In this document: in pieces, positions 1,641-44,854 of the stretch | Numbering within the stretch: position 1 is the first letter of the stretch | Layout: each line of letters starts with the position of its first letter | From: Streptomyces sp. NBC_00091 | Lineage (GTDB): Bacteria > Actinomycetota > Actinomycetes > Streptomycetales > Streptomycetaceae | Assembly (NCBI RefSeq): GCF_026343185.1 | Contig: NZ_JAPEMA010000001.1 | Location: 3,658,001 to 3,722,000 of the forward strand | DNA: 64,000 nucleotides | Direction: 5' to 3' | The notes under the pieces: generated by a model | Database searches by the model: none | What the model saw: only the letters and a program-made list of their open reading frames with translations | Told to the model about the DNA's origin: nothing | Translations under genes and position numbers: made by a program

Positions 1641-1883
1641 TCAAGCTCCAACCGTCTGATATTCGCGGCGACTGTACTCGACGCCTCAGGTTGAGTGCAC
1701 CCCTGTTGACCTGCACTTTTGGTGACAATTGGGTGCGATTATTACTTTTGCCCAGGAGTTAATCGACGCCATTGGTATTCGAATTTAAGCCATTGGTCGG
1801 CGTTTCGGACTCGCGAATTCGGGCTGTTATTCTGCGCCGATGAATTTCCTAGATATGTGGGGTGGGGTGTGAGAAGATCTCGC
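1641..1883. promoter_or_regulatory. AT-rich divergent intergenic region
   Basis: This 243-bp spacer between the divergent DNRLRE and Rhs genes is clearly richer in A/T than its surroundings (for example 1730-1760 and 1780-1850), so promoters for both genes are expected here. The reading frame is open upstream of the chosen Rhs start back to a TTG at 1719, but that extension has low-GC codons and no signal peptide, so I treat it as non-coding. No clear -10/-35 pair or operator can be assigned by eye. Confidence 0.4.
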
Positions 1884-4800
1884 ATGAGAAGGCTTTCTGT
1901 GGCAGTGGCCGCAGCAGTCCTTTCGGGCACGCTGCCAGGGGCTGTGGCCGTCGCCGACAGCAAAGACAGGCCGTCGCTGCCGCAGCTCAAGCAGCCGAAG
2001 GCCGTACCGGTGAAGCCGGTCCGTGCCGGTGGGACGAACAAGCCGGACGGTGCGGCGGACCACGCGTGGCGGGCTCCGAAGGTCACTTGGCCTGCGGCAG
2101 GCTCAGTCGAGGTGGATCTCGCCACAGGGACGGTTTCCAAGGCTTTCGCCTCTGGCGGGAGACAGGCTCCTGCCATCGGTTCCAGCTCGCATCAGGCGGG
2201 CAAGTTCCCGGTGGCGGTGTACGCGGCACCGGGTAAGGCGGCCGGGACCCCGGCCAGGATGAAGGTGGCTGTCGCCGCGCGGGACGCGGCGCGCAAAGCT
2301 GGCATCGATGGCGTGTTGCTGTCGGTGGGCCGCTCGGACGGTGGCCAGCAGTCGACCTCCGCCAAGGTCGAGGTCGACTACAACACCTTCCGCGCCGCGT
2401 ACGGCGGCGACTACGCCGCACGGCTGCACCTGGTCGAACTCCCGGCCTGCGCGCTGACGACCCCGGACCGTCCGGAATGCCGTACGCAGAAGTCGCTCGA
2501 GACCCGGAACGACACCCGCTCGGGCAAGCTCACGGCCGAGGTCACGACACCCGGCGCCTCGGCGCAGGAGGGCAAGTCGGCCGGGCTGTGGGCGAGGCCG
2601 GCACCTGCCGCCGCCCCTGCCGCGACGGTCCTGGCCGCAACGGCCGGTACTTCCGGTTCGACCGGCGACTACAAGGCGACATCACTGCAGCCCTCGGGCT
2701 CCTGGAACGCGGGCGGATCCACCGGCGCGTTCACCTGGTCGTACAACGTCGCGATGCCCCCCGTCCCGGGAGGTCTCGTGCCGAAGATCTCCCTCGACTA
2801 CAACTCGCAGTCGGTCGATGGCCGCACTGCCGCATCCAACACCCAGGCGTCCTGGATAGGTGACGGCTGGTCCTGGGAGCCGGGGTTCATCGAGCGCAAG
2901 TACAAGCCGTGCAACGACGACAAGACCGGCAGCACGAACACCGCGAAGGTGGGTGACCAGTGCTGGTTCAACGACAACGCCACACTGTCCCTGAACGGCA
3001 AGTCCACCGAGCTGGTCTTCGAACAGGGCAAGGGCTGGCACCCGGCGTCCGACTCCGGCGAGAAGGTGGAGAAGCTCACCGGCGCCACGAACGGCGACAA
3101 CGACGGTGAGCACTGGAAGATCACCACGACCGACGGCACCCAGTACTTCTTCGGCCTGAACCGCCTCCCGGGGTGGAAGGACGCGTCCACGCCCACGACG
3201 AACTCGACGTGGACCGTGCCCGTCTACGGCAACCAGGCCGGCGAACCGTGCTACAACGCCTCGTTCGCGAGCGCCTGGTGCCAGCAGGCCTGGAGGTGGC
3301 AGCTCGACTACGCGGTAGCCCCCGGCGGCAGCGCCATGGCCTACTACTGGAAGACGGAGACCAACAACTACGGGCGCAACGTCTCCCAGACCACCGGCAA
3401 GGGAACCGTCACTCCCTACATTCGATCGGGCTGGCTCGACCGCATCGACTACGGGCTTCGCGCCGATTCGGTCTACAGCGCCAAGGCCATGGGCCAGGTC
3501 TCCTTCAGCGCCTCGGAGCGGTGCCTCACCAACTGCGGAACCTTCGACGAGAGCAACGCCAAGAACTGGCCCGACTCTCCGTACGACCAGTTCTGCAAGG
3601 ACGGTTCCACCGAGTGCAAGAACCAGTTCTCGCCCACCTTCTGGTCGCGCATGCGACTGACGGGCATCAACACCAGGATCCTGACCGGCGGCGCCTACAA
3701 GGACGTCGACTCCTGGGCCCTGGAGCAGAGCTTTCCGCCGTCCGGTGACGGCATCTCCACTCCGCTGTGGCTGAAGTCCATCACCCGCACGGCGAAGGCC
3801 GGCGACGCCCCCGACATCACCCTCCCTCCGATCACCTTCGCGGGTGAGCAGAAGCCCAACCGTGTCGACAAGACCGGTGACGGCCTCGCCCCCTTCATCC
3901 GCCTGCGGATGTCCCAGGTGACCACCGAGTCCGGAGGCACGACAGGCGTCACCTACTCCCAGCCGGACTGCACCGTCGACACCCTGCCGGCTGCGGACGC
4001 TTCGAACACCAAGCGCTGCTACCCGGTGAAATGGGCGTTCGAGGGTGAGACGGCCAAGCTGGACTGGTTCAACACCTACGTCGTCGACAAGGTGCTGGAG
4101 GGCGACAACCTCGCCGACTCACCAGACAAGGTGACCTCGTACAGCTACCTGGGCGGAGCGGCCTGGGACAAGAGCACGGATGAGTTCACCAAGTCCGAGG
4201 ACCGGGTCCACTCCGTCGCCCGCGGCTACGAGCGCGTCCAGGTTCGTGCCGGCGCCGCCGACGAGCCGAAGTCCCTCACCGAGATGCGCTACTTCCGAGG
4301 CCTTGACGGCAAGGAGGTCAAGGACGGCGCAGGAGCGGCAGTCATCGACCGCCCGGAGTACGCCGGGCGCCCTCGGGAATCGGCCACTTACAACGGGGAC
4401 GACACCGACAAGCTCGTCACCGCGACCTCCAGCACACCCTGGCGCTCGGACATCGTGGCCAAGCGGGTCCGGCCCGGCCTTCCCGACCTGGTGTCGTACA
4501 AGACCGGAGTGGAGAAGGCCTCCACTCGCACCACGGTGACCGGCGGGACCCGCACGACCGAAGTCACCCGGCACTACGACGGCTACGGCATGGTCGAGTG
4601 GGAATCCCAGAGCGGTGACACCGCCACGACCGGCGACGAGGCCTGCACGACGAGCAGCTACGCCCGCAACACGACGAGCTGGATCCTGGACAAGGTGAGC
4701 CGGGTCGAGACGGTCGCGGTGCCCTGCGGCTCGACGGTCAACCGGCCGGTGGACGTCATCTCCGACAGCCGGACCTACTTCGACAACGGCGCGCTCGGCA

Positions 4801-7800
4801 CGGTCCCCGGCACTGGCCTGCTCACCAAGACCGAGACGATCAACGCGAAGGGGGACGGCTACGACACCCTCTCCTACATACCCAGCACCTGCGGCGTCTC
4901 CAAGGATCAGCTCTGCTACGACGCTTACGGGCGCCAGCTGGCCATTGCCGACCCGTACGGCAAGCTCACCACCATCGCACTGGCTCCTGCCGCTGGAGAG
5001 GTCGCGACCACCATGGTCGTGACGAATCCGAAGGGCCACGCCGCGTCCTCCGAGCTCGACCCGCTGCGTGGGCAGGCCACGAAGGTCACCGACCCCAACG
5101 GCAAGGTGACCACGACGACCTACGACGCCCTCGGGCGTACGTCGAAGGTCTGGCTGCCGAACTGGCCGGCCGCCACCAACCCCGACAAGCCGAGCCGCCT
5201 CTTCGAGTACACGATCCGCAACGACGGCCCGAACGTCGTCACCTCCAGGTCGCTGACCCACGATTACAAGTACGTAGTCAGCCACGCCATCCAGGACGGG
5301 CTTCTGCGTGATCGCCAGACCCAGACGCAGTCACCGGACCTGGCGGGACGTCTGATCTCCGAGACGTTCTACGACACGAAGGGCCAGCCCTGGCGGTCCT
5401 CGGGGACGTACTACGCCGACGGCGCCCCCGACGTTCAGCTGGTGTCCGGCCCGGAGAGCGCCTACCCGGCCTCTACCGACACGGTTTACGACGGAGCCGG
5501 CCGACCCACCGCGGTGATCTCCAAGCGCTTCGGGGTGGAGACGAAGCGGGCCACCACGAGCTACACCGGTGACACCACCACCGTCGTTCCGCCCCAAGGC
5601 GGGACCTCGGCGACCACCGTCGTGGACGCCTTCGGACGCACGGTCGAACTCAAGCAGTACACCGACGCCGGACGCATGACGTCGCAGTCCACTCGGTACG
5701 CGTACAACAGGCTCGGACGCCTGTCCCAGGTCACCGACCCGAGCGGCGCGCAGTGGACCTACACCTACGACGTACGCGGTTCCCAGATCGAGGCGAACGA
5801 CCCGGACAAGGGCACGACCAAGACCACGTACGACAGTGCGGGCAAGGCCACGGACGCGACCGACGCCCGCGGCATCACCCTGCACACCGACTACGACGAG
5901 CTCGGTCGCCCCACTGCGGTCAAGCAGGGCGCGACGGTCCTGACGTCGAACGTCTACGACACCGTGGCCAAGGGCCGGCTGAGCAAGTCGACCCGGTACA
6001 TCGACGGCCAGGCCTACGAGTCGGAAGTCACCGTCTACGACCACCTCTACCAGCCGCTGCAGACGCAGGTGACCGTCCCGGCGACGCCGGACACGGGCGC
6101 GCTCGCCGGTACGTACAAGTGGACCAACAGCTACAACATCACCGGGCAGCTGCTCACGACCAAGCAGCCGGCCATGGGGGACCTCCCCGCCGAAACGGTC
6201 GGCAGCACCTACAAGTCGGTCTCCGGCCTCCTCAACACCTTGGGCGCCGGCAGCAGCAGGCTCGTCTCGGCCATGACGTACGACCATTACGGCCGTGCCA
6301 CGCGCCAGGAGCTCGGAGCGCCCGGCCAGCGGGTGTTCACCTCGACCGAGTACGACGACCACACCGGAACCGTCACCCGCGCCTACAGGGACCGGGAGGT
6401 CGCACCGCAACGCCTCGAAGACACCCGCTACACCACCGACCCCGCGGGCAACCTGACGGCCATCGCCACGGCCAATGGCCAGGACGCGGAGCGCACCACC
6501 GACACCCAGTGCGTCAACCTTGACGCGCTGCGCCGCATCGTCGACGCCTGGACCAACAGGGGCGAAACCTGCGCAGCGGCGCCCGCCGAATCAGTCGTCG
6601 GCGGTCCGGACGCGTACTGGACCACGTACACCTACGACGCGGTCGGCAACCGCAAGACCGAGACCAAGCACAAGACCACTTCGGGCCCGGCATCTGACAC
6701 CGTCCGCACGTACGCGGCGTCGACGGCGGGCAAGCACGACCTGCCCAAGATCACGCAGTCGGGTACGGAGGGGCGGGACGAGGCCTTCACCTACGACGCA
6801 TCCGGCAACACCAAGACCCGAAAGATCGGAACGGAAGAGACCCAGTACCTGGAGTGGGACGCGGAGGGGCACCTCAAGACCCTCAACCAGGGAACGTCCA
6901 GCAACTCGTTCGCGTACGACACCGCCGGCCAGCGTCTGCTCCGCAAGGACTCGAGCGGCACCACCCTCTACCTTCCGGGCGGCAACGAGCTCAAGCTCGA
7001 CAAGTCCGGCAAGGTGACCGGGACCCGCTACTACGGCGGCGTCGCCATGCGCACGGGCGGCAAGCTCACCTTCACCCTGGCTGACCACCACGGCACCGGC
7101 ACCACGCAGATCAGCGCCGATGCCACGCAGACAGTCACCCGCCGCAAGACGGGAATCTTCGGTGAGGAACGCGGCACCCAGCCGACCGATTGGGCGGGTG
7201 AGGAGGGGTTCGTCGGCGGCACCAAGGACACCGACAGCGGCTTCACCCATCTGGGAGCCCGAGAGTACGACCCCCTGATCGGCCGCTTCATCTCTGTCGA
7301 CCCGCTCATGGACCTGTCCAACTCGCAGCAGCTCCACGGGTACGCGTACTCCAGCAACAACCCTGTCTCTCTCAGCGATCCCACGGGCGAGATCGAAAGG
7401 GACTGCTGGAACGGCAACTGCGGTGGTCACTACAACCCTCGTGACGACAAGCTGGCAGGCGATGACCCGCGTAGGCCGCACGGGATGTCGGGCGGCTACG
7501 ACAGCAGGCCGGAGACTTACGCGACCTTCAGGCCGACCGCCAACGACATCGTGTGGCTCGACAGGGAAGACAAGCCGCTCCGCCTTCCCAAGAAGGTCAC
7601 CCCGAAATTCCTCAAGGCATATCGGAAGCAGGTCGATAACGAATTCCGGTTCCTCGTCAATAATGAGCGCGGAACGATCTGGGTCGCGCAGACCACGGCG
7701 CTGCTAAATGCCTGCGAGGAGACTGACTGCCCTGAGCTCGGGTATTACACCATGCTCAACATGGATGCAAAGCTCGCGAATGGCGAGATTGCGCCGGCTG

Positions 7801-8600
7801 AGCTTCCCGGAGGGGGTGCTGGCGCAATAATGCCCCGAGCCGGGGGCAATACCAAACCCGTCAAGGGTGGCGGCTGCCAGTGCTTCCTGGCCGGCACGCG
7901 CGTCATGATGGCGGACGGCACCTCAAAGGCCATTGAAGAGATCGAGATCGGCGACGAAGTCATCGCTGCCGATCCCCGGTCGGGTGAAGCCGGAAAGCGT
8001 AAAGTAACGCGACTGATAGCTACCGAGGATGACAGGTTCTTCAACAAGCTGTCCATTGTGACAGGCGAGGGGATTGAAGAACTGGTCGCCACTCGCGAGC
8101 ACCCCTTCTGGTCGCCGTCACAGAATGCCTGGGTCGACGCTGGCGATCTGACGCCTGACATGTCCCTCACAACCGAGTCCGGTGGTACGGCAATCGTTGC
8201 CAGCAACGAGTCGTACACGGAGTACGCGAGGACCTACAACCTCACGATCGAAGACCTCCACACGTACTATGTGCTCGCGGGAGCCACGCCGGTACTCGTT
8301 CACAACAGCAACTGCCCGACAACCCCAGTTGGCGGGAGGGGTACGAACTTCCGCAATCTTTCGCCAAATGAGCCGGCAACAATCGCGGGGCGCGATTACA
8401 CCGGACATGCGATTGACCGGATGCAGGAGCGCGGTCTCATGCCGTCGGTAGTTGAAAACACAATTCGTGTCGGCGAAAAAATGGCAGGGAAGCGGGCCGG
8501 GACCACGGCCTACTACGAAGCGGAGAATCATGTGACGGTGATTACGGATACCGCAACTGGGCGGGTTGTCACCGTTAGCTCCGGAAGGATCAAGCAGTGA
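1884..8600 (+). CDS. secreted Rhs/YD-repeat polymorphic toxin with HINT domain and DUF4258-like toxin tip
   Basis: A 2238-residue protein. I chose ATG 1884 (GAGAAG 7 nt upstream; MRRLSVAVAAAVLSG signal peptide); GTG 1869 would add five residues. The N-terminal region (about 300-350) has the DYKATSLQPSGSW and PKISLDYNSQS motifs of actinobacterial exported Rhs proteins, then YD repeats (for example TYDALGRTSKV, TYDSAGKATD), ending in the Rhs core signature YDPLIGRFISVDPL near residue 1795. A linker leads to a HINT/intein-like domain: CFLAGTRV with its catalytic Cys at residue 2000, TREHPFW, and the terminal VLVHNSNC (His2140-Asn2141). The last about 95 residues (GHAIDRMQERGL ... TAYYEAENHVTVI) resemble DUF4258. 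Known logic: the Rhs shell carries the toxin and HINT cleaves it off. Codons become AT-richer after about 7560, suggesting an exchanged tip. The immunity gene overlaps the stop. Confidence 0.92.
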   Translation: MRRLSVAVAAAVLSGTLPGAVAVADSKDRPSLPQLKQPKAVPVKPVRAGGTNKPDGAADHAWRAPKVTWPAAGSVEVDLATGTVSKAFASGGRQAPAIGSSSHQAGKFPVAVYAAPGKAAGTPARMKVAVAARDAARKAGIDGVLLSVGRSDGGQQSTSAKVEVDYNTFRAAYGGDYAARLHLVELPACALTTPDRPECRTQKSLETRNDTRSGKLTAEVTTPGASAQEGKSAGLWARPAPAAAPAATVLAATAGTSGSTGDYKATSLQPSGSWNAGGSTGAFTWSYNVAMPPVPGGLVPKISLDYNSQSVDGRTAASNTQASWIGDGWSWEPGFIERKYKPCNDDKTGSTNTAKVGDQCWFNDNATLSLNGKSTELVFEQGKGWHPASDSGEKVEKLTGATNGDNDGEHWKITTTDGTQYFFGLNRLPGWKDASTPTTNSTWTVPVYGNQAGEPCYNASFASAWCQQAWRWQLDYAVAPGGSAMAYYWKTETNNYGRNVSQTTGKGTVTPYIRSGWLDRIDYGLRADSVYSAKAMGQVSFSASERCLTNCGTFDESNAKNWPDSPYDQFCKDGSTECKNQFSPTFWSRMRLTGINTRILTGGAYKDVDSWALEQSFPPSGDGISTPLWLKSITRTAKAGDAPDITLPPITFAGEQKPNRVDKTGDGLAPFIRLRMSQVTTESGGTTGVTYSQPDCTVDTLPAADASNTKRCYPVKWAFEGETAKLDWFNTYVVDKVLEGDNLADSPDKVTSYSYLGGAAWDKSTDEFTKSEDRVHSVARGYERVQVRAGAADEPKSLTEMRYFRGLDGKEVKDGAGAAVIDRPEYAGRPRESATYNGDDTDKLVTATSSTPWRSDIVAKRVRPGLPDLVSYKTGVEKASTRTTVTGGTRTTEVTRHYDGYGMVEWESQSGDTATTGDEACTTSSYARNTTSWILDKVSRVETVAVPCGSTVNRPVDVISDSRTYFDNGALGTVPGTGLLTKTETINAKGDGYDTLSYIPSTCGVSKDQLCYDAYGRQLAIADPYGKLTTIALAPAAGEVATTMVVTNPKGHAASSELDPLRGQATKVTDPNGKVTTTTYDALGRTSKVWLPNWPAATNPDKPSRLFEYTIRNDGPNVVTSRSLTHDYKYVVSHAIQDGLLRDRQTQTQSPDLAGRLISETFYDTKGQPWRSSGTYYADGAPDVQLVSGPESAYPASTDTVYDGAGRPTAVISKRFGVETKRATTSYTGDTTTVVPPQGGTSATTVVDAFGRTVELKQYTDAGRMTSQSTRYAYNRLGRLSQVTDPSGAQWTYTYDVRGSQIEANDPDKGTTKTTYDSAGKATDATDARGITLHTDYDELGRPTAVKQGATVLTSNVYDTVAKGRLSKSTRYIDGQAYESEVTVYDHLYQPLQTQVTVPATPDTGALAGTYKWTNSYNITGQLLTTKQPAMGDLPAETVGSTYKSVSGLLNTLGAGSSRLVSAMTYDHYGRATRQELGAPGQRVFTSTEYDDHTGTVTRAYRDREVAPQRLEDTRYTTDPAGNLTAIATANGQDAERTTDTQCVNLDALRRIVDAWTNRGETCAAAPAESVVGGPDAYWTTYTYDAVGNRKTETKHKTTSGPASDTVRTYAASTAGKHDLPKITQSGTEGRDEAFTYDASGNTKTRKIGTEETQYLEWDAEGHLKTLNQGTSSNSFAYDTAGQRLLRKDSSGTTLYLPGGNELKLDKSGKVTGTRYYGGVAMRTGGKLTFTLADHHGTGTTQISADATQTVTRRKTGIFGEERGTQPTDWAGEEGFVGGTKDTDSGFTHLGAREYDPLIGRFISVDPLMDLSNSQQLHGYAYSSNNPVSLSDPTGEIERDCWNGNCGGHYNPRDDKLAGDDPRRPHGMSGGYDSRPETYATFRPTANDIVWLDREDKPLRLPKKVTPKFLKAYRKQVDNEFRFLVNNERGTIWVAQTTALLNACEETDCPELGYYTMLNMDAKLANGEIAPAELPGGGAGAIMPRAGGNTKPVKGGGCQCFLAGTRVMMADGTSKAIEEIEIGDEVIAADPRSGEAGKRKVTRLIATEDDRFFNKLSIVTGEGIEELVATREHPFWSPSQNAWVDAGDLTPDMSLTTESGGTAIVASNESYTEYARTYNLTIEDLHTYYVLAGATPVLVHNSNCPTTPVGGRGTNFRNLSPNEPATIAGRDYTGHAIDRMQERGLMPSVVENTIRVGEKMAGKRAGTTAYYEAENHVTVITDTATGRVVTVSSGRIKQ

Positions 8601-8881
8601 GTGAGAGTTCTGATGTGCAGTGGTTGCGCGAAGGCGTACGTCAGTCGATTCAGAAATACCGTGCCGGTGAGATTGCGCTCCGGAGTCTGATCGACGACCT
8701 CGACTCGGTTTCGTCGAACCTTGAGGCATCTCCATTGGGCGAGGATCTTCGCTCACATTGGTGGGTCCTTGAGGAAATCTATGCTGTTGCTCTTGATCGA
8801 GGTGATCTTCGAGAATTGCCTCGCGAGGACGAACTGGCCATCGAGGAGACCCTCGATGCGTTGGAGCGGCTGCTGAGTTAG
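8597..8881 (+). CDS. probable cognate immunity protein of the Rhs toxin
   Basis: A 94-residue acidic protein starting at GTG 8597, which overlaps the Rhs stop by 4 nt (GTGA), so the two are translationally coupled. It is predicted mostly helical (LREGVRQSIQKYRAGEIALRSLIDDLDSV, abbreviated here as a helix-rich N-terminal half) with many Glu/Asp in the C-terminus (LPREDELAIEETLDALERLL). I recognise no family with certainty. Its assignment as immunity rests on position directly behind a polymorphic toxin tip, small size, acidity and the coupling. The GC content is lower than core genes, as for the toxin tip. Confidence 0.75.
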   Translation: MSESSDVQWLREGVRQSIQKYRAGEIALRSLIDDLDSVSSNLEASPLGEDLRSHWWVLEEIYAVALDRGDLRELPREDELAIEETLDALERLLS

Positions 8882-9016
8882 ATATGCCGTCGTGAGTAGA
8901 GGTATCACGACTGGACGCCCTGATAGGCCAATCGCACTTTTCGGTGCGGCTCTGTCGGTTCGCTTGAGCGAAGCAATAGGGCCATCGGATGGCCGGTATC
9001 AACCGTTATGTCGTTG

Positions 9017-9048
9017 CCTGACGGCAGTAGTTGACGGCAACGGCCGCG
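9017..9048. repeat. candidate attachment-site repeat, left copy
   Basis: CCTGACGGCAGTAG at 9017-9030 recurs exactly at 12051-12064, and the next 17-18 bases (containing GACGGCAAC and CCGCG) are also similar in both copies. This copy lies 38 bp beyond the 3' end of the recombinase gene, the usual place for an attachment site. TGACGGCA itself is a 13-bp-spaced tandem motif here. A weaker third relative (GGCAGCAATTGACGGCAAC) lies at 13200-13218. The attachment role is inferred. Confidence 0.5.
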
Positions 9049-9076
9049 AACACCAGAGGTGTTCACGGCCGTTGCC
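9036..9076. terminator. strong hairpin behind recombinase gene
   Basis: A 19-bp inverted repeat (9036-9054 against 9058-9076, one mismatch, loop AGA) lies directly after the stop of the minus-strand recombinase. It is positioned as its terminator and could also stop transcription coming from the immunity gene on the plus strand. It overlaps the candidate attachment repeat. Confidence 0.65.
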
Positions 9077-9085
9077 GTGCGTGTG

Positions 9086-10045
9086 TCAGGGGCGGTTGAG
9101 GGCGTCGCCGAGGACTGCCATCGCCTCCCGCTGCAGTCGTAGGCGTACGTGGGCGTAGACGGTGGCGGTGACGCCGATGTGGGCGTGACCCAACAGCTCT
9201 TTGATGACCACGAGTTCGACGCCTTGCTCAAGAAGCAGGGTGGCGGTGGTGTGTCGGAGATCGTGGAAGCGGATGCGGCGGAGGCCGGCCTTGCGGAGGA
9301 GAGTGCTGAAGGCGCGGGTGAGGTTGGTCGGGTCGATCGTTACCCCCTGGGGAGTGGTGAACACGTGTCCGCTTTGCTGCCACGTGGTGCCTGCGGCCTC
9401 CCGCTCGCGCTGCTGCCGTTCGCGGTGGAGCTTCAGCGACTGGGCACTGCGGGTAGGCAGGGCGATGCGGCGTTCGGAGGCCCGGGTCTTGGTCGGCAAC
9501 GTAGTGAGCCCGCCCGTGCTGGTGCGCTGCAAGGTGCGGCGGATAGCAGCGGTGCCAGAGTCGAGGTCGAGGTCTTCCCAGCGCAGGCCGAGGAGTTCGC
9601 CCTTGCGGAGTCCGGTGTGGAGAGCCAGCTCGAACAGTGCACACAGCCGGTGACCGTTCGCGGCGGTGAGGAACTGGCGGGCCTCGTCGGCGGTGAGGGG
9701 CTCGAAACGTCGGGGGCGGGGGGTGCCGGTGCGGACGTTGCGGGCGGCGTTGCGCGGGATCTCCTCTTCTCGGACGGCGTGCTCCAGGGCGGACTTGAGG
9801 ACGGAGTGGATGTACGCCAGTGTCCGCGGGGAGAGCCGCTTGGAGCAGCACGTTCCGGCGGCGCAGCAGCGGGGCTGGTCGCGCCGGGCGTCGCGGCCGC
9901 GCGTGCAGCACTGGCAGGTGGTGCGGAGCTGGTTGAGCCAGGTGCGGATGTCCTTGGCGGTGAGCTTGGTGAGCTTCTTCTTGCCCAGGCCGGGGATGAG
10001 GTATCGGTTGACGCAGGCGGTGTAGCGGGTGTGCTCGTCGCCCGG
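9086..10045 (-). pseudogene. tyrosine recombinase/integrase, N-terminally truncated
   Basis: The minus frame from 10045 to the stop at 9086 encodes a phage-type integrase lacking its beginning. It starts inside the core-binding domain (TRYTACVNRYLIPGLGKKKL, Cys-rich insert CQCC ... CCAAGTCC as in Streptomyces integrases) and continues through the catalytic domain: TGLRKGELLGLRWEDL (first Arg), the FHDLRHTTATLLLEQG box (His-x-x-Arg), LLGHAHIGVTATVYAHV (final His and Tyr). The catalytic residues look intact. However, an in-frame TGA at 10048-10046 precedes the open part, no ATG/GTG start follows for a long way, and the usual 60-80-residue arm-binding domain is absent. I therefore call it a remnant. 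A large inverted repeat begins 12 bp upstream of the break. Alternatively a frameshifted start could exist, but no plausible N-terminal domain is visible in other frames. Confidence 0.75.
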
Positions 10046-10056
10046 TCACCGGAGGC

Positions 10057-10138
10057 GTACCAGGAACCCCCGGGGGCCGCCAAGGCCAAGCGCAAGCGTC
10101 ACCGGTGAGCCTTGGCGGCCCCCGGAGAACCCTGGTAC
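10057..10138. repeat. 30-bp imperfect inverted repeat with 22-nt loop
   Basis: 10057-10086 and 10109-10138 are inverted copies (outer GTACCAGG and inner CGGGGGCCGCCAAGGC match; a few mismatches in between). The structure sits exactly where the recombinase N-terminus is missing and upstream of the XRE gene. It may be a deletion scar, a bidirectional terminator or a recombination site; I cannot tell which. Confidence 0.6.
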
Positions 10139-10316
10139 GGCGAAGCTGCCCGACCGACGAGGGACCCCTCCCGCTCAGGCCCCGATCCTGCCGGGGCCCA
10201 GCCTGTTTGCTCGGCACCAAGCCGGTGGTGGGTCACCGCTTCGGGCGGGTATCTGCCGGATAGCCCTCGGTTGGCTCGCCGGACCGGCGTACCGTGGCGC
10301 TGGAGGTGGTCAGCTG

Positions 10317-11564
10317 ATGACTACGGAACTGGCGGACAACGTCCGTAAGTACCGGCGTCGGGCCGGGATGAGCCAGGAAGAACTCGCATACGCCGCAGGC
10401 GTCTCGCCGGGGACCGTCCGCAAGGTCGAGCAGGGCGGCACGGTCCGCATGGAAACTCTTCACACCCTCGCCCGCGCGCTGAGGGTGACCACCGGCGCGC
10501 TCATGACGTCCGACGCCCCCGAACCCGTGGGCCGTACAGAGGAGCCGAACCGGGTCAACCTGATCCAGCTGCGCGCCGTACTCACCCCGGCTGTTGGGCT
10601 CGTGGACCAGGACCCCGAAGCGGTGGGCGAGGAACCCAACCTGCGTGCCTTCACCCGGACGGTGGGAGACGCGCGGGTCCTGTACTTCTCCGACAGCTAC
10701 AAGAGCGTCGCGACTCAACTGCCGGACCTGCTGCGCGATGCCGGAAGAGCCGTCGCCTACTACGACAGTGGAGACGAGCACCGGCAGGCCCTACTGGCCC
10801 GCGCGGAGGCGCTGCGCTTGGCCGGCACTTACCTCACCCAGGTCCGGCAGTACGACATCGCCTACACTGCCCTGGCCGGCGCGATCGCGGATGCCCGGCA
10901 GGCCGGGGACATGCTCGCGGCAGGATCCGGCGTCGGTGGCTTGTGCTGGCTGCTGGTGCGGCAGGGCCGGCTGGACGAGGCGGAGCGGATCGCCGCCCAG
11001 AGCATGGACGCGGTAGAACCGAAGATCACCGGGGCCGAGCTGGACCACTACGCAGTGTGGGGCGGACTGGCGATGGAGGCCGCAGCCGCAGCCGCCCGCA
11101 ACAACCGGCCGGATGAGGCCAAGGAATACCGGAAGGCAGCCCGGGTGGCGGCAGCCGCCGTTGGCACGTCGCACCGCAACGTCTCCCGGCACTGGTCCGT
11201 CTTCGGGCCAGTCACGGCGGCGATGAAGGCCCTCGAAGACTCTATGGTCGTTGGAGACGCGCGGGCCGTGGTGCGCAAGGCAGGCGAGCAAGAGGAGTTG
11301 TCACCCAAGGCGTGGAAGCGCTTGGGCAGGCCCAGCACGAACGACGGGAACCGCTTCACCCTCGACGTGGCGCGCGCCCACACACGGACCGGGGACCTGT
11401 CGGCCGCCATGGATGAACTGACCCGCGCCCGGTCGGCGGCCCCAGAGTGGCTGCGGCACCAGAACATGGCCGCCGAGACCATGCAGGAGATCCTGGGCAA
11501 GCGCAAGCGCACCCTCACGACGGAAATGCGCGAGTTGGCCGGCTACCTGGGCGTCGTCGGATAG
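10317..11564 (+). CDS. XRE-family helix-turn-helix regulator with TPR-like C-terminus
   Basis: 415 residues from ATG 10317 with GGAGG upstream. Residues 1-65 form a Cro/CI-type HTH (MSQEELAYAAGVSPGTVRKVEQG). The remainder (about 120-410) is an alpha-helical, Ala-rich tetratricopeptide-like region (ALAGAIADARQAGDMLAAG, GRLDEAERIA, RPDEAKEYRKAARVA). This layout is very common in Streptomyces regulators encoded next to small partner proteins or in mobile elements. It lies between the truncated recombinase and a small gene on the same strand, so it is probably the regulator of the residual element. Target genes are unknown. Confidence 0.85.
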   Translation: MTTELADNVRKYRRRAGMSQEELAYAAGVSPGTVRKVEQGGTVRMETLHTLARALRVTTGALMTSDAPEPVGRTEEPNRVNLIQLRAVLTPAVGLVDQDPEAVGEEPNLRAFTRTVGDARVLYFSDSYKSVATQLPDLLRDAGRAVAYYDSGDEHRQALLARAEALRLAGTYLTQVRQYDIAYTALAGAIADARQAGDMLAAGSGVGGLCWLLVRQGRLDEAERIAAQSMDAVEPKITGAELDHYAVWGGLAMEAAAAAARNNRPDEAKEYRKAARVAAAAVGTSHRNVSRHWSVFGPVTAAMKALEDSMVVGDARAVVRKAGEQEELSPKAWKRLGRPSTNDGNRFTLDVARAHTRTGDLSAAMDELTRARSAAPEWLRHQNMAAETMQEILGKRKRTLTTEMRELAGYLGVVG

Positions 11565-11689
11565 CTACCACGCAACGCGATACTTCTGGCACGCTCCGTC
11601 GCCAACTGGCATGCCTCACCGATGGAGTGACGGACAGTAGCCCCCTACGGTCGCCGTATTCCATTCGGCTACCCAGGTGGGGGTGAACG

Positions 11690-12055
11690 GTGAGTACATC
11701 CAGGACCGACGCGGACCGTATGCGCCGCAGGGAGTTGCACGACGCAGCGGCAGGCGTGACCGGCCCTCGCTTACTGCCATGGACCACTCAGGACGGGAAC
11801 CCCTGCTACCTCAGCACCGACGGCAAGGGCTACCTCTCCTCTCTCGCCGACAGCATCGAAGAAGTACAGCTCGATATGGGCGAGGAACTCCTGGCGTACG
11901 CCCGTAAGGTCGTGGCCCCTGGAGCGAGCGAGCTGTCGGCCGTCGAGTACCGGTGGCTCGCCTGCCGGCTGACCGAAGCCCTGGCGGACGCACTCCGGGT
12001 CGCCGAGTCACGCGGCGACCGCATCCCCGTCCCGCCCGAGAACCACGACTCCTGA
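11690..12055 (+). CDS. small hypothetical protein downstream of XRE regulator
   Basis: 121 residues, GTG start at 11690 preceded by GGTGGGGGTGAAC. I recognise no family. The N-terminus is basic (SRTDADRMRRRELHDAA), a short aromatic stretch follows (LLPWTTQDGNPCYLS), and the C-terminal half is an amphipathic helix region (YRWLACRLTEALADALRVAESRGD). The gene is 125 bp behind the XRE gene in the same direction, and its stop codon lies inside the second copy of the candidate attachment repeat, consistent with it being the last gene of the element. Confidence 0.65.
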   Translation: MSTSRTDADRMRRRELHDAAAGVTGPRLLPWTTQDGNPCYLSTDGKGYLSSLADSIEEVQLDMGEELLAYARKVVAPGASELSAVEYRWLACRLTEALADALRVAESRGDRIPVPPENHDS

Positions 12056-12082
12056 CGGCAGTAGCGACGGCAACAACCGCGG
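12051..12082. repeat. candidate attachment-site repeat, right copy
   Basis: CCTGACGGCAGTAG at 12051-12064 duplicates 9017-9030, followed by a diverged continuation with GACGGCAAC. If both copies are attachment sites they bound a 3.03-kb segment holding the recombinase remnant, XRE regulator and small gene. A 20-bp imperfect tandem (ACAACCGCGGA / ACAACCACGGA) follows at about 12073-12112. Confidence 0.5.
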
Positions 12083-12150
12083 ATTCAGGCGCACAACCAC
12101 GGACTCCGGTGGACCCTAAAACCCCTCCCTACCTGCATAAAAGCAGCTAG

Positions 12151-12516
12151 AGGAGGGCCCGCCAGCACACGTACTATGTGCTGGCCGGGACCACGCCAGT
12201 GCTCGTACACAACTCGAACTGTGGCATTCCGACAAAGACGGACAGGATAGCCGAGCATCTCACGTTCAGGGATCTGGATGCCGCTAAACGTGAACTCGGC
12301 GGTGAGGTTGTTGCGCGAAAGGCTGATGGAACTCCGTGGGATCACGTTAGCGAGGTGCGAGATGCTCAGACGGGTCTCCTGAACCACATGCATCAGATCA
12401 AGGTGCAGATGTCAAAGGCGGGTGTTGATCATCCGAGCTTCTCGTCACTCCAAAGTGAATTCAGTCAGGCCAGCAAGCTGCTCGACTGCTCAGAGAAATA
12501 CGTCCCGAGGCACTGA
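12151..12516 (+). pseudogene. orphan toxin tip: HINT tail plus Ntox28-like toxin domain
   Basis: The open frame begins after a TAG at 12148 and encodes HTYYVLAGTTPVLVHNSNC, the final strand of a HINT domain, then about 95 residues resembling polymorphic toxin type 28 (LDAAKRELGGEVVARKADGT, DHVSEVRDAQTGLLN, ASKLLDCSEKYVPR). The first 17 bases (12166-12182) are identical to 8259-8275 in the active Rhs gene, and similarity continues through VLVHNSNC. There is no sensible start with a ribosome site (a GTG exists at 12178) and no signal peptide, so this is a silent displaced Rhs tip. Its immunity gene overlaps the end. A stem-loop (CCCTCC/GGAGGG, about 12124-12158) stands just in front. Lower GC than core genes. 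Confidence 0.8.
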
Positions 12517-13091
12517 TGGCAGAATTTAGAGAAATGCTCAGTAAGGCGAAATCTGGGACGCTGAATGCCAGGGAACTCGGCGTTGCCGTGGAGGCAATTT
12601 CTAGGGGCCGGACAAGTCGGGGCGACCTGTATACGGCGTTGCATGTGGTTGGGCTGGCGGGCTCCCCTGCCCAAGCAGAGGTCGTCAGGCGGTATCTCCG
12701 TATACCTACGGACCCAATGCTGTCCCGCCTTGCCTTGCAGGTTCTTGGTGACTACTGGGGGATGTCTTCTGAGCTCCTCCCTGAGCTCCGCAGCTTCCTG
12801 GCTGGAGTCGATTGGGATATTGATGGCGATGTTCGAGATATCGCCATTTCCGTCACCGGCAGGCATCTTCGGAAGGCAGGCGGACCGGCCTACTTGGCGA
12901 AAATGTTGATGAATATCGCTGACGATGAGAGCGAGTTCGGTATTGTGCGAGAGGCTGCATTGCGGGCCTTGGCTGCCGGACTTGGGGACTCACTTCTCGA
13001 AACGTCTTCTGCTGCCGTCCGAGTGCACATTGGATCTGCGCAGGCTGTCAATGTCCTAGCCCGTGCTAGAAAAAGGTACACTGAGCAGTAG
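12516..13091 (+). CDS. probable immunity protein for the orphan Ntox28-like toxin
   Basis: 191 residues from ATG 12516, overlapping the last base of the toxin-tip stop (TGATG). It is helical and repetitive (YTALHVVGLAGSPAQAEVVRRYL, MLSRLALQVLGDYW, DVRDIAISVTGRHL, VREAALRALAAGLG, each shorter than a full repeat), resembling HEAT-like immunity proteins. Base composition is lower in GC than core genes, as for the toxin tip. Role inferred from its position directly behind the toxin. It may still be expressed from an internal promoter and protect against relatives carrying this toxin. Confidence 0.7.
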   Translation: MAEFREMLSKAKSGTLNARELGVAVEAISRGRTSRGDLYTALHVVGLAGSPAQAEVVRRYLRIPTDPMLSRLALQVLGDYWGMSSELLPELRSFLAGVDWDIDGDVRDIAISVTGRHLRKAGGPAYLAKMLMNIADDESEFGIVREAALRALAAGLGDSLLETSSAAVRVHIGSAQAVNVLARARKRYTEQ

Positions 13092-13124
13092 CTAGCATCG
13101 GGCAATGCAATCCCATGATTTGAG

Positions 13125-13175
13125 CGACAAGAAGCCCCGCCACGGCCCTGGAGGTCGTGTTGGGGCTTCTTGTCG
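13125..13175. terminator. terminator hairpin after second immunity gene
   Basis: A perfect 14-bp stem (13125-13138 with 13162-13175, ending in TTTC) follows the immunity stop at 13091 by 34 bp. Confidence 0.75.
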
Positions 13176-13226
13176 TTTCTTGTCGCTTCTTGCCGTCTTG
13201 GCGGCAGCAATTGACGGCAACTTCAG

Positions 13227-13466
13227 ATGGCGAGAGGCCGTGAGCGAAGGCGGTTCGTTGCTTTCGTTCTGCTGGGCCTTGGTGTTCGTTGCGCCGTCGA
13301 GGCCGGTGCTGAGGATGTTGTTGGCGTCCCGTTGGAGGTGGAGTCGGCCGTGGACGCGAAGTCCGAGCTGCCGAAGGGGCTTCAGCTGGTCCCGGTCACC
13401 TCGCTGACGGATGCGGTGAACGCTCTGCGGGGGCTGAACCGGGGCGAGACGGTTCCGTCCTGCTGA
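13227..13466 (+). pseudogene. possible C-terminal remnant of a Lon-like (S16/YlbL-type) protease domain
   Basis: A 79-codon frame whose second half (VEAGAEDVVGVPLEVESA, LPKGLQLVPVTSLTDAVNAL, ending TVPSC) looks like the last strand-helix of PDZ-S16 peptidases of the YlbL type. There is no ribosome site before ATG 13227, and the first 20 residues do not look like that family. The frame runs 71 bp into the 3' end of the convergent MFS remnant. It may be what is left of a core gene at the right border of the Rhs accessory region; the family match is from memory of the pattern and is weak. Confidence 0.35.
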
Positions 13467-41203: not shown

Positions 41204-41938
<735 letters not shown>

Positions 41939-42030
41939 CAACCGGCGGGCGCGAGCCCACGTCTACGCAGGTACGGGCGCACGGTGTCAGAGCCGCGCGC
42001 CCGTCCACGTATCCGAGCCCTGGGGGACCC

Positions 42031-42465
42031 ATGAAGCCGACCGAGCCGACCGAGCCGACCACGCCGAACAAGCCGGCGACCAAGGCAAAGCTCCGCATCG
42101 CCGCCGTGGCCCTGGCCGCCGCGCTCACCGTCCCGGCCCTGACCTCCTGCGACGCGATCTCCACCGCCATGGACTGCGCCAACACGGCCGTCGCCATCGC
42201 GGACAGCGTGAACGACCTCCAGCAGGCCGTCTCCAACGCGGGCAACAGCATCCAGGACACCCAGAACGCGCTCGACAAGATCGACACCAACCTGAAGAAG
42301 ATCAAGGACCAGACGGGCAACGCCGACCTCGGCAAGGCCGTCGACTCCATGACCACCGCCGTCAAGAACGTCCGCACCGCCGTCGACAACGGGGACACCA
42401 CCCCCGACGTCAAGCCGGTCGCCGACGCCGCCGCGGAGATCTCCAAGGTCTGCACCCCGGGATAA
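42031..42465 (+). CDS. small lipoprotein, coiled-coil
   Basis: 144 residues from ATG 42031. A Pro/Thr-rich start precedes a hydrophobic segment and lipobox VPALTSC (lipidated Cys at 40). The mature part is a long amphipathic helix region (SVNDLQQAVSNAGNSIQDTQ, LDKIDTNLKKIKDQTG) typical of a coiled coil, then AAAEISKVCTPG, giving one or two further Cys. Function unknown. It lies between rph and rdgB, overlapping or abutting the latter. Confidence 0.85.
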   Translation: MKPTEPTEPTTPNKPATKAKLRIAAVALAAALTVPALTSCDAISTAMDCANTAVAIADSVNDLQQAVSNAGNSIQDTQNALDKIDTNLKKIKDQTGNADLGKAVDSMTTAVKNVRTAVDNGDTTPDVKPVADAAAEISKVCTPG

Positions 42466-42473
42466 TGGGGGAC

Positions 42474-43076
42474 ATGACCCGCCTGATCCTCGCGACCCGC
42501 AACGCGGGCAAAGTCACCGAACTCCGCGCGATCCTGTCCGACGCCGGCCTGCCCCACGAGCTGGTCGGCGCGGACGCGTACCCCGAGATCCCGGACGTCA
42601 AGGAAACCGGCGTCACCTTCGCCGAGAACGCCCTCCTCAAGGCGCACGCCCTGGCCCGCGCCACCGGCCTGCCGGCCGTCGCGGACGACTCCGGGCTCTG
42701 CGTCGACGTCCTGAACGGCGCCCCCGGCATCTTCTCGGCCCGCTGGGCCGGCGCCCACGGCGACGACAGGGCCAACCTGGACCTCCTGCTGGCCCAGCTG
42801 GGGGACATCCCCTCCGAGCACCGCGGCGCCCACTTCTTCTGCGCGGCCGCCCTGGCCCTCCCGGACGGCACCGAACGCGTCGTCGAGGGCCGCCTCCTGG
42901 GCACCCTGCGCCACACCCCGGTGGGCGGCGGCGGCTTCGGCTACGACCCGATCCTCCAGCCCCTGGGCGAGTCCCGCACCTGCGCCGAACTCACCCCGGC
43001 GGAAAAGAACGCCATCTCCCACCGAGGCCAGGCCTTCCGCGCCCTGATCCCGGTGGTCCGGGAACTGCTGGGCTGA
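42474..43076 (+). CDS. rdgB: XTP/dITP diphosphatase (RdgB/HAM1)
   Basis: 200 residues from ATG 42474 (MTRLILATRNAGKVTEL, the conserved start); an ATG at 42465, overlapping the lipoprotein stop, adds three residues. Removes non-canonical purine nucleotides: LATRNAGKVTELRAIL, TFAENALLKAHALA, VADDSGLCVDVLNGAPGIFSAR, GGFGYDPIL and AEKNAISHRGQA are the family motifs. Last gene of the rph operon, followed by a strong terminator. Confidence 0.95.
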   Translation: MTRLILATRNAGKVTELRAILSDAGLPHELVGADAYPEIPDVKETGVTFAENALLKAHALARATGLPAVADDSGLCVDVLNGAPGIFSARWAGAHGDDRANLDLLLAQLGDIPSEHRGAHFFCAAALALPDGTERVVEGRLLGTLRHTPVGGGGFGYDPILQPLGESRTCAELTPAEKNAISHRGQAFRALIPVVRELLG

Positions 43077-43090
43077 CGCCGGGCACGCCG

Positions 43091-43125
43091 ACGGCCGGTC
43101 ACCTCGTGACGAGGTGACCGGCCGT
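43091..43125. terminator. strong terminator between rdgB and tRNA
   Basis: Perfect 16-bp stem (43091-43106 with 43110-43125), loop TGA, followed by TT; serves convergent rdgB and the minus-strand tRNA. Confidence 0.88.
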
Positions 43126-43131
43126 TTGCCG

Positions 43132-43207
43132 TGGGCCCGGTGGGACTCGAACCCACGACACACCGGACCTAAACCGGCGCCCTCTTGGCCAGCTGGGGTA
43201 CGGACCC
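43132..43207 (-). tRNA. tRNA with UAG anticodon (formally Leu) but class-I shape
   Basis: On the minus strand a full cloverleaf can be drawn: acceptor GGGTCCG/CGGGCCC with discriminator A, T8-A9, a D-arm with G18-G19, anticodon stem GCCGG/CCGGT with loop TTTAGGT (U33, anticodon UAG), a 5-nt variable loop GTGTC, and T-arm GTGGG-TTCGAGT-CCCAC. CCA is not encoded. By the code UAG reads CUA (Leu), yet bacterial tRNA-Leu normally has a long variable arm, which is missing. It lies 12 bp after the HNH genes on the same strand. The gene is certain in structure; its amino acid is not. Confidence 0.85.
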
Positions 43208-43219
43208 GCGCTCACTACC

Positions 43220-44089
43220 TTACTGGTCTCCGAAGGCTCGTTGTGAAGGGATGGCCGGCCTTGATCGTTTGGCGAAGGTCGGCGTCTGGCTGTGGCAGGA
43301 AGGGCAGAGGTAGCGGAGGTTTTCCCGCCGGTTGTCGAGCCTGTCGCCGTTGACGTGATCGATCTCCAGGACGAGCCGGCGGCCTCGCCAGTTGTCTCCC
43401 GTACCGCACTCCGCGCACTGGTGTGGCACTCCGAGGTCGTCCAGGGCTCGGCGCAGCGTCGCCGTCTTCGTACGGGCGGAGCCGACTTCGAGTCGCGTCA
43501 GGATCTCCTCCGGTGACTTGCGGGCAGGGGAGGGGCGGCCGATGGTGTGTCCCTGGCCGGTGAAGTGCTCTGTCGACAGCCCGTATTCCTCGATACTCCG
43601 CCTGGCTTTGGCGCGTGCGGCCCCGTCGAAGGGGTGGTGGCCTAGCGCGCGCATGACCCCCGCCATGCTCTTCGAGTCGGCGACCACGGGTGAGATCTCC
43701 TCGCGGACGAAGAAGCGGCGTGACGAAGGAGCGTCTCGACCGGGGAAGTGCGACGTGTCTATCCCGAACCGTTCGAGGAGCTTGGCGATATGGACGTGGG
43801 CACTGTTGTACGGCTCGACACCCATGTAGGCGAGCATCTCGGTGATGCTGTCCGAGCAGGCGGCCGCTTCGCGGAGCCGCTCCTCCGTATAGCGCTGCCG
43901 GACCCGGACGGGAAGCGGCTCGTCGGCGAAGTGGGATGTGTCGATGCCGTAGTGAGCCAGCCTGTCACGCACGTACCGGCGAGGGCCGGCCAGCAGTGGG
44001 ACGTCCAGAAGTCTCATGAGGTCGACCAGGCTGGTGGCCAGCGGCGCGGTTCGGCTCAGCAGGTCCCGGGTGTACCTGACCTGGCTCAT
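43220..44089 (-). CDS. HNH endonuclease with repeated GIDTSHF modules (second of pair)
   Basis: 289 residues from ATG 44089, overlapping the upstream paralogue by 4 nt (ATGA). About four modules of 45-55 residues end in HYGIDTSHF, RFGIDTSHF and EYGLSTEHF; each has a helix-turn-helix-like core and may bind DNA or structure RNA. The C-terminal HNH nuclease has CAECG, LEIDHVNGDRLDNRRENLRYL and CPSCHS. Such modular HNH proteins behave as homing or phage-type nucleases. It is directly followed by the unusual tRNA. Moderately lower GC than neighbours. Confidence 0.88.
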   Translation of the reverse strand: MSQVRYTRDLLSRTAPLATSLVDLMRLLDVPLLAGPRRYVRDRLAHYGIDTSHFADEPLPVRVRQRYTEERLREAAACSDSITEMLAYMGVEPYNSAHVHIAKLLERFGIDTSHFPGRDAPSSRRFFVREEISPVVADSKSMAGVMRALGHHPFDGAARAKARRSIEEYGLSTEHFTGQGHTIGRPSPARKSPEEILTRLEVGSARTKTATLRRALDDLGVPHQCAECGTGDNWRGRRLVLEIDHVNGDRLDNRRENLRYLCPSCHSQTPTFAKRSRPAIPSQRAFGDQ

Positions 44090-44712
44090 GCGGCCCACCT
44101 CGCCTTGCGGCCTCGGTACGTGTCCGTGGTCGCGTGGCAGTTGGGGCACAGGATCCGAAGGTTTTCCTGCCGGTTGTCCCACCACTCGCCGTTGATGTGA
44201 TCGACCTCGTGCCGAAGTGGTCTGTTGTTCCACTCCGGACCGACCCCGCACTCGGCGCATTCCTCGGGAACGCCGACCTTCAGCAGCTCTCGCCGCAGGC
44301 GCTCGCCGGGGACTCTGCCGTCCTGCGGATCCCTGAGCGAGAGCGTCGGTCCCAGAGCCCCCTTGGGGCGAGGCCTCCGGGTGGTGACGAAATGCGATGT
44401 GTCGATGCCAAGAGCCGAGATCCGCCGGGCGATGTGCGCCTGGTTGCCGCCGACGTTGCTGATGCCGAGGCGGCTGACCACCTCCGAGATGGAGATGGAC
44501 TCGGCTACAAGCTCCCGGAGTCGCTCTTCCGTGTGCCGTGCCCATTTCGTGGGGAAGTGGGAACAGTCGATTCCGGTTTCCCGCATCTTCGCGCGCAGAT
44601 AGCGCCTGCTGCCGCTGCTCGGCGTACCGCCGCACCATCGGACGGCGTCGTCCCAGTTGTTCGTCTCGCGAGCTGCGGCTTCCAGCAGCTCGCGCGTGTA
44701 TCGGACCGTCAT
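44086..44712 (-). CDS. HNH endonuclease, modular (first of pair)
   Basis: 208 residues from ATG 44712. Two N-terminal modules end in TGIDCSHF and LGIDTSHF, and the HNH domain is intact (CAECGVGP, EVDHINGEWWDNRQENLRIL, CPNCHA). It resembles the downstream gene throughout, so the two arose by duplication; the second gained modules. Together they form a two-gene operon ending in a tRNA. Target DNA is unknown. Confidence 0.88.
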   Translation of the reverse strand: MTVRYTRELLEAAARETNNWDDAVRWCGGTPSSGSRRYLRAKMRETGIDCSHFPTKWARHTEERLRELVAESISISEVVSRLGISNVGGNQAHIARRISALGIDTSHFVTTRRPRPKGALGPTLSLRDPQDGRVPGERLRRELLKVGVPEECAECGVGPEWNNRPLRHEVDHINGEWWDNRQENLRILCPNCHATTDTYRGRKARWAA

Positions 44713-44803
44713 TGCTCTCCATTCCCGGCCGCCCGTGCGGCCCTCGTACGGAGTAACGGGTCGATAGTCGGACGGTTACGGGATATTTCGTCCGATAAGC
44801 GGA

Positions 44804-44830
44804 ACGGCCCGCACCGGAGGTGCGGGCCGT
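44804..44830. terminator. terminator hairpin of bcp
   Basis: Perfect 12-bp stem (44804-44815 with 44819-44830), loop GGA, between bcp and the HNH operon start region. Confidence 0.8.
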
Positions 44831-44854
44831 GGGGTGGTGTGGGTGGGGCGGGGG

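Follow-up and report, generated by a model that had tools for sequence, protein, structure and literature searches.

In Streptomyces sp. NBC_00091, a 64,000-nucleotide stretch of contig NZ_JAPEMA010000001.1 (positions 3,658,001 to 3,722,000; hereafter the window) contains an Rhs polymorphic-toxin gene with a toxin tip fused in frame to its shell and a second, headless tip further downstream. We consider it very probable that this arrangement was produced by a family of actinomycete integrative and conjugative elements (AICEs) that inserts at a short core in the HINT tail of Rhs genes, fuses its own toxin in frame to the resident shell, and displaces the old tip. The boundary of the insertion, the repeat, the gene content in relatives and the presence of empty as well as occupied alleles are all read from DNA sequence. 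That the insertion is site-specific, with the displaced tip on its attR side, is indicated by the core boundary shared by headless tails, the arm block beside it, the freezing of silent sites at the core, and the integrase and AICE genes bracketed by core copies.

Empty and occupied alleles in S. goshikiensis

On plasmids of S. goshikiensis the same Rhs shell is found both empty and filled. Strain NBC_00909 has a single core (L144:9364) and CGMCC 4.1796 is also empty, while NBC_01191 has four cores and three integrase genes, with attL at L142:15003, internal cores at 24611 and 30981, and attR at 41274. The filled and empty alleles align on either side of the insertion, at 99.75% identity on the left (NBC_01191 5640-15043 against NBC_00909 1-9404) and 99.84% on the right (41274-45072 against 9364-13162), and the 26,271 bp of stacked elements in NBC_01191 lie exactly between the shell and a displaced tip of the NBC_00909 type. 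This last orphan tip is the fused tip of NBC_00909 and CGMCC 4.1796 (99% amino acid identity), whereas the fused tip of the occupied allele is 19% identical to that of the empty allele, the insertion starting at the core. The NBC_01191 locus has four tips, only the first of which is fused; the others stand one apiece behind the three later cores. In two more strains, NBC_00283 and S. sp. ADI95-16, this shell ends in other tips; the five near-identical shells bear four tips between them, with the left 300 amino acids 99-100% identical and different tips 15-40% identical. ADI95-16 retains a 3.4-kb remnant with a 415-amino-acid helix-turn-helix (HTH) gene, a small open reading frame (ORF) and an attR like that of the window.

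The NBC_01191 region (NZ_CP108578 190000-239000, L142) is also a case of three elements stacked in one Rhs gene. A second S. goshikiensis Rhs locus, represented by NZ_CP115937 (L143) and NZ_CP108769 (L139), sets a complete AICE in one strain against a mere integrase remnant in the other; this pair is less clean, with shells 84-89% identical and three tips whose first residues differ.

A boundary conserved as DNA

Relatives were collected by scanning species-representative genomes with the orphan tip of the window, which confirmed 167; the best 80 were kept, corresponding to 79 loci. A motif script identified 81 HINT tails in these loci, 63 preceded by at least 60 open codons and 18 without them (headless). 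One conserved block of ~110 bp abuts the core on the left in 17 of the 18 headless tails. Among 42 non-redundant orphans the GACGGCA motif is present in the left stretch of 41, and 38 have an in-frame stop to the left of the core at a distance of 0 or 5 codons.

The core is conserved at silent positions. Its T-Y-Y codons are ACG in 64, TAC in 64 and TAT in 63 of 64 fused tails (window included), against shell usage of 27% for ACG among Thr codons and 9% for TAT among Tyr codons. Host codons to the left of the core vary; the element-derived codons to its right are biased, less strictly. Core-less HINT genes in core-bearing genomes encode the peptide with other codons (in L157, CACACCTACTACGTG). 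Tyrosine recombinase cores form imperfect inverted repeats, and CACA-7-TGTG in this core is one; the overlap presumably falls within it. The exact 20-mer core occurs in 155 of 392 Streptomyces genomes (the genus of genome G017) and the reversed control pattern in none. In a plasmid collection, a 56-base HINT-tail piece was matched by 87 records, of which 84 are from Streptomyces; this would put many Rhs loci of the kind on plasmids.

Integrases and complete elements between cores

Of 61 fused cores, counted once per locus with the window and the second copies in L015 and L075 excluded, 40 are followed within 4 kb by integrase homology. With one exception this homology is on the minus strand, and none was found upstream of these 61 cores in the 535,822 bp searched. 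As a control we used 32 PT-HINT matches in 12 core-bearing genomes, 17 with the 20-base core (at most one mismatch) and 15 others. Two of the 15 core-less genes, L152 and L154, have an integrase match in the fetched stretch; L152 has a near-core, as does L154 (L078:9735), whose integrase match is upstream of its HINT domain. The difference between 40 of 61 and 2 of 15, in groups drawn from different genomes, gives a Fisher p of 3e-4.

L068/L110 presents a whole element of 10,565 bp. The order there is fused tip, gap, int, xis, RepSA, DUF2637, FtsK/Tra, SCO3933 family, GntR, XRE, small ORF, arm block, core and orphan tip; the gap is the expected place of an immunity gene, for which no search was made. 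The L068 int matches Phage_integrase (E 2.6e-29), and upstream of it is an xis-like HTH ORF, a name given from sequence (the annotation in L137 and L138 is 'helix-turn-helix domain-containing protein'). RepSA matches PF20199 (E 6.4e-154) and scores 582 of 700 bits on the NCBIfam RepSA model, below the cut-off, while Tra matches PF01580 (E 2.4e-8) and the Spd-like gene DUF2637 (E 2.7e-7). Two further hallmarks of an AICE, direct-repeat att sites and an empty site, are present in relatives. Among 26 fetched regions, most of them chosen for two close cores so that the fractions are not prevalences, at least two cores are present in 24; in 18 the cores enclose near-full-length int together with xis and with RepSA in whole or in part (int is matched as two pieces in L126, and L113 has a partial RepSA); and Tra was also matched in 9, divergently (26-32%) in L119, L121 and L122.

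The module beside attR differs among elements, as seen at the right ends of L044, L049, L051, L061, L137 and L138: it may be XRE with a small ORF, XRE with NUDIX, or an asparagine-synthase-like gene with a methyltransferase, and some right-end ORFs are presumably PIN/VapC-like. A PLSDB search for a free circular form returned a 14-kb S. longwoodensis plasmid with a related integrase (45%) on a DUF3631/primase-polymerase backbone, in which no search for the core was made. Phage records gave no match to a HINT-tail piece, and a plasmid search with the L143 orphan stretch gave matches mostly to an IS630 transposase inside the query.

The Rhs locus of the window

The features of the locus, in window coordinates, are as follows.

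1884..8600, plus strand: Rhs polymorphic toxin gene, shell with PT-HINT and tip 1 (RHS_repeat E 2.4e-15, PT-HINT E 1.3e-19)
7908..8309, plus strand: PT-HINT domain, residues 2064-2197 of the Rhs ORF
8259..8275, plus strand: attL core CACACGTACTATGTGCT, start of HTYYVLAG
8316..8600, plus strand: toxin tip 1, DUF4258-like, fused in frame (profile match E 6e-5)
8597..8881, plus strand: putative immunity gene 1, 94 amino acids, no family, role suggested by position
9019..9041, plus strand: integrase-side arm-like repeat TGACGGCAGTAGTTGACGGCAAC, also beside int in many relatives
9089..10045, minus strand: tyrosine integrase fragment without ~97 N-terminal residues (Phage_integrase E 3.3e-29)
10017..10034, no strand: putative internal deletion junction, with the int N-terminus, xis, rep, spd, tra and gntR gone by comparison with full elements
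10317..11564, plus strand: XRE regulator with TPR, right-end module (near-attR gene 90% identical in amino acids in L068, 69% in L041)
11690..12055, plus strand: small ORF, 121 amino acids, right-end module (74-87% in L018, L041 and L068; 69% in L070)
12052..12165, plus strand: attR left arm, TGACGGCAGTAG-CGACGGCAACA and hairpin-like block, conserved in relatives
12166..12182, plus strand: attR core, the same 17 bases as the attL core
12166..12516, plus strand: headless HINT tail with Ntox28, the displaced tip (Ntox28 E 8.8e-24)
12516..13091, plus strand: putative immunity gene 2, 191 amino acids (HEAT_2 below cut-off; 87% in amino acids in L001, beside the same toxin)
13199..13356, minus strand: arm repeat and integrase 3'-end remnant of an older element (tblastn to integrase residues 394-428, E 1e-4)

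RHS repeats, a pretoxin HINT domain, a variable C-terminal toxin and a downstream gene whose position suggests an immunity role identify the gene as an Rhs polymorphic toxin. Its ORF (1719-8600, 2293 amino acids) is open from TTG 1719, and ATG 1884 is the likely start, judged by eye from a signal-peptide-like sequence. The change in codon behaviour at the core suggests that PT-HINT up to 8258 belongs to the host shell and its final 17 residues to the element. Tip 1 scores 23.6 bits against DUF4258, under the Pfam cut-off of 25. The headless tail begins 3.3 kb after tip 1 and immunity gene 1, and an in-frame stop followed by five codons precedes its core. A preliminary description of this locus, made from the sequence alone, had listed the Rhs gene, the DUF4258-like tip, the immunity genes, the headless HINT tail, Ntox28 and the 17-base identity, and all of these are present; it had also remarked on the lower GC content of both tips, which we measure, immunity genes included, at 0.571 and 0.566, the shell having 0.665.

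CACACGTACTATGTGCT occurs in the window only at 8259 and 12166. It sits in a 56-nt repeat, 82% identical, whose first base is the first base of CACACGTACTATGTGCT; to the left of the core the two copies are unrelated, with HINT coding sequence at 8259 and a repeat-bearing block at 12166. Arm-like repeats of the TGACGGCAGTAG type lie at 9019 and 12053, with a third, weaker one at 13199. The gap between the tips, whose content the preliminary description did not report, holds the integrase fragment, the XRE regulator, the small ORF and the arm-like repeats at 9019 and 12053; the repeat at 13199 and the older integrase remnant lie beyond the second immunity gene. The integrase fragment corresponds to residues 98-414 of the 435-amino-acid L068 integrase (86%). 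Alignments of the window to full elements stop at 10033 and resume at 10017 or 10034, which points to a deletion at 10017-10034. In the window stretch there is no match to xis, RepSA, Spd, Tra or GntR, and int is truncated: the copy, which between its two cores comprises tip 1, immunity gene 1, the integrase fragment, the XRE regulator and the small ORF, is a decayed AICE that lacks the complete int, xis, rep and tra of a working one, and it is not expected to move by itself. At 10034-10161, past the integrase fragment and before the XRE gene, is a 53-nt inverted repeat (77% complementary) in a stretch that is conserved in L068 (83%); it may be a terminator or transfer site.

The history of the locus is illuminated by L001, from Actinacidiphila bryophytorum, in which the Ntox28 tip (91% in amino acids) is fused to an Rhs shell and accompanied by its immunity gene (87%). 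Such a fusion in a relative had been put forward as the check on tip swapping, and it bears out the view that the window holds a displaced alternative tip and that tips have been exchanged. The fused tip of L001 is followed by an integrase end, and window positions 12162-13356 match L001 at 83% DNA identity, the match starting 4 bases before the core. Since the window also retains a weak integrase 3' remnant (~13199-13356; blastn 71% over 160 bp), an older element was probably the source of the Ntox28 tip. We suggest that the Ntox28-tip element entered first and left this remnant, that the DUF4258-tip element then inserted at the core, and that later loss of the int N-terminus, xis, rep and tra would have frozen the new tip in place. 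Shortened elements with different end points are found in L133, L128 and L134.

Exchange and diversity of tips

Tips appear to move INDEPENDENTLY of shells and backbones. Of the fused tips, 83 pairs are 60% or more alike; their median tip identity is 91% and their median left-flank identity 43%, the flank falling below 60% in 69 pairs; in 31 further pairs a fused tip matches an orphan tip, and the pairs in either set are not independent. Over int-rep-tra, L110 and L111 have 85% DNA identity, yet their fused genes align no further than 56 nt past the core start, and the fused tips are 17% alike. The gathered loci contain 91 tip clusters, 13 of which are both fused and orphan. Pfam matches comprise 25 families, each in one to three of the 91 tips, including nucleases, deaminases, ADP-ribosyltransferase-like domains and others, and the immunity protein of L138 belongs to the Barstar family (E 5e-15). 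GC content is lower than in the tip's own shell in 103 of 106 fused tips (means 0.569 against 0.643, overlapping loci not removed). Tandem Rhs tips are also present in L075, resembling those of L130 and L132 considered below.

Weighing the alternatives

Several observations weigh against insertion by an AICE. Excision, the circular form and transfer are predicted, none of them having been observed. The integrase-side arm repeat is ~760 bp from the core, and typical attP sites have an arm nearer than that. For 21 of the 61 fused cores no integrase match was obtained within 4 kb; L131, L132 and L154 have integrase pieces on the upstream side of a later copy; and half (9) of the 18 elements that combine int, xis and RepSA gave no match to Tra. 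The exact core is absent from 237 of the 392 Streptomyces genomes. Core position 3 is T in the attL of NBC_01191 and C in both empty alleles, so a simple central crossing-over would need an extra mutation or conversion. The headless tail of L050 is without the arm block and has HINT-like sequence to its left; it looks like a broken shell. L130 and L132 carry tandem tips in which the later copies keep 72-145 open codons to the left of the core, with nearly the same left flank, and integrase pieces with no xis, rep or tra lie between them.

The preliminary description regarded the 17 shared bases as a substrate for homologous replacement. Taken as a full account, recombination between HINT tails would have both replaced and displaced the tip, leaving the integrase as an unrelated neighbour, and we find this highly improbable. 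It would accommodate the 56-nt repeat at 82% identity and the long shared HINT flanks of the tandem tips in L130 and L132, which lack xis, rep and tra; recombination of orphans into rhs has been described (PMC4927057, PMC5361080; papers cited here and below are drawn on in part, and our statements refer to those parts), and others have described homologous tip replacement for Salmonella rhs. It does not account for an orphan boundary that, in 17 of the 18 headless tails, falls on one and the same base beside an arm block common to them, for silent sites frozen at the core, for AICE genes between cores in 18 of 26 regions (selected as pairs), or for a clean 26-kb insertion with empty sister alleles. 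These four observations largely refute homologous exchange as the sole mechanism for this class, and we reject it as such; the 17 bases behave instead as attL and attR, and the second tip, which had been seen as a 'spare cassette' kept for use, is more probably the attR side of an insertion. Given the long shared left flanks in L130 and L132, homologous exchange seems to occur besides the element route.

We give just as little credence to a mobile unit limited to 9019-12165, inserted beside a tip and immunity gene that some other process had put in place. The GACGGCA arm repeat at both 9019 and 12053 would suit such a unit, as would the fact that integrase genes usually adjoin attP, but the fused tips of the occupied and empty S. 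goshikiensis alleles differ (19% identity), the insertion begins at the core and not behind the immunity gene, and the three later NBC_01191 cores each have their own tip. Unlikely, though compatible with insertion, is that the downstream tip works as a stand-alone intracellular toxin-antitoxin addiction module with its own start. GTG 12178, inside the core, could open a 112-amino-acid ORF with an immunity-sized gene next to it; against this, no ribosome-binding site is seen by eye at the usual spacing, 38 of 42 orphans have the in-frame stop 0 or 5 codons before the core, and some orphans are truncated (73 codons in L033 against 126 in L079).

Proposed mechanism

For insertion by an AICE we propose that the attachment site is the DNA for the end of the HINT domain (HTYYVLAG) in Rhs toxin genes, and that the element carries a HINT end, a toxin and an immunity gene next to its own copy of the core. 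Integrase-catalysed recombination at the core would join the new tip in frame to the resident shell; one integration step would swap the last ~17 HINT residues and the toxin, supply the matching immunity gene, and leave the former tip and its immunity gene headless beyond attR. With an in-frame stop to the left of the element's core, the tip would stay silent both while the element is circular and once the tip has become an orphan. The reaction would be reversible where int and xis are intact, with excision restoring the older tip, and repeated insertions would stack tips in one locus. Transfer between cells would presumably be conjugal.

We lean, with some reserve, towards a broader picture in which the Streptomyces Rhs gene is a receiving platform for a dedicated class of conjugative elements, each of them a transmissible warhead for the HINT tail, the toxin is expressed only as a fusion, the stacked tips form a last-in-first-out archive that excision can reopen, the weapon polices retention of the element, and the tip segment, which would run from the core to the conserved integrase end, is exchanged between backbones. 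Loss of the element would be loss of immunity towards siblings; the fused toxin would be expected to kill siblings without the element's immunity gene, and the weapon would thus police retention. Contact-dependent growth inhibition has been reported to stabilise plasmids through immunity loss in cells that lose them (PMC4927057).

Significance and comparison with known systems

Polymorphic toxins acquire unrelated tips and retain the former one downstream; homologous recombination accounts for the replacement of a tip but not for its displacement. Now that an element can be named together with its att core, its arm block and alleles of both the empty and the occupied kind, Streptomyces offers a direct test of how this comes about. 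Insertion of the kind proposed would explain a one-step change of warhead in Rhs weapons, add a protein-coding and protein-altering attachment site to those of AICEs, and link conjugation to bacterial competition. It would also provide a DNA signature for finding toxin-immunity pairs, with 91 tip clusters at one site in the gathered loci.

In integrons too, cassettes displaced from an expressed first position are stacked behind it in a site-specific manner; the likeness of the present loci to them is one of analogy. Unlike in integrons, the integrase travels with each element, and each stacked unit has its own; the integrase is only a distant match to the integron integrase model, far below the cut-off (54 of 265 bits), attC not having been searched for. 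In Vibrio cholerae Aux3, effector-immunity genes of the type VI secretion system are likewise moved between att sites by site-specific recombination, but attB is intergenic and whole genes are inserted, with no in-frame replacement of a toxin domain (PMC7721734). Prophages of Mycobacterium abscessus also carry toxin-immunity cargo beside attL or attR, but as complete toxin genes with their own WXG-100 head, and the host gene gains no toxin (PMC8092301). Closer in form are the orphan CdiA-CT/CdiI and Rhs-CT modules, which are headless toxin-immunity pairs behind an active gene; intervening integrase or transposase genes were noted there and site-specific recombination was suggested (PMC4927057, PMC5361080). 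Unlike the present case, those passages define no att site, element or empty allele, and PMC5361080 reports no evidence for integrase-facilitated insertion.

Among the open-licence matches listed, judged by titles and the starts of abstracts, we saw no AICE or other integrative element with an att site in an Rhs or HINT tail; most subscription papers lie outside this set, and priority is uncertain. The word Rhs is absent from the main text of PMC3218068 and PMC9513070, to which this statement is confined, supplements lying outside it. In gene content our elements are like RepSA-type AICEs such as pSAM2 (PMC3218068, PMC9513070), with a tyrosine integrase, an Xis-like gene, RepSA, DUF2637 (Spd-like), an FtsK/SpoIIIE Tra, and GntR and SCO3933-family regulators, and like the AICEs surveyed in these papers they accrete at one site and frequently decay. 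The AICE sites in PMC9513070 comprise 36 tRNA, 14 protein-coding and 1 intergenic, and tRNA integration is the rule except for AICEs with an integrase of the pSLS subfamily (PMC3218068). Our elements differ from those surveyed in having their att site within the coding sequence of an Rhs toxin and not in a tRNA gene, and in giving the gene a new C-terminus, so that integration would change the toxin of the protein.

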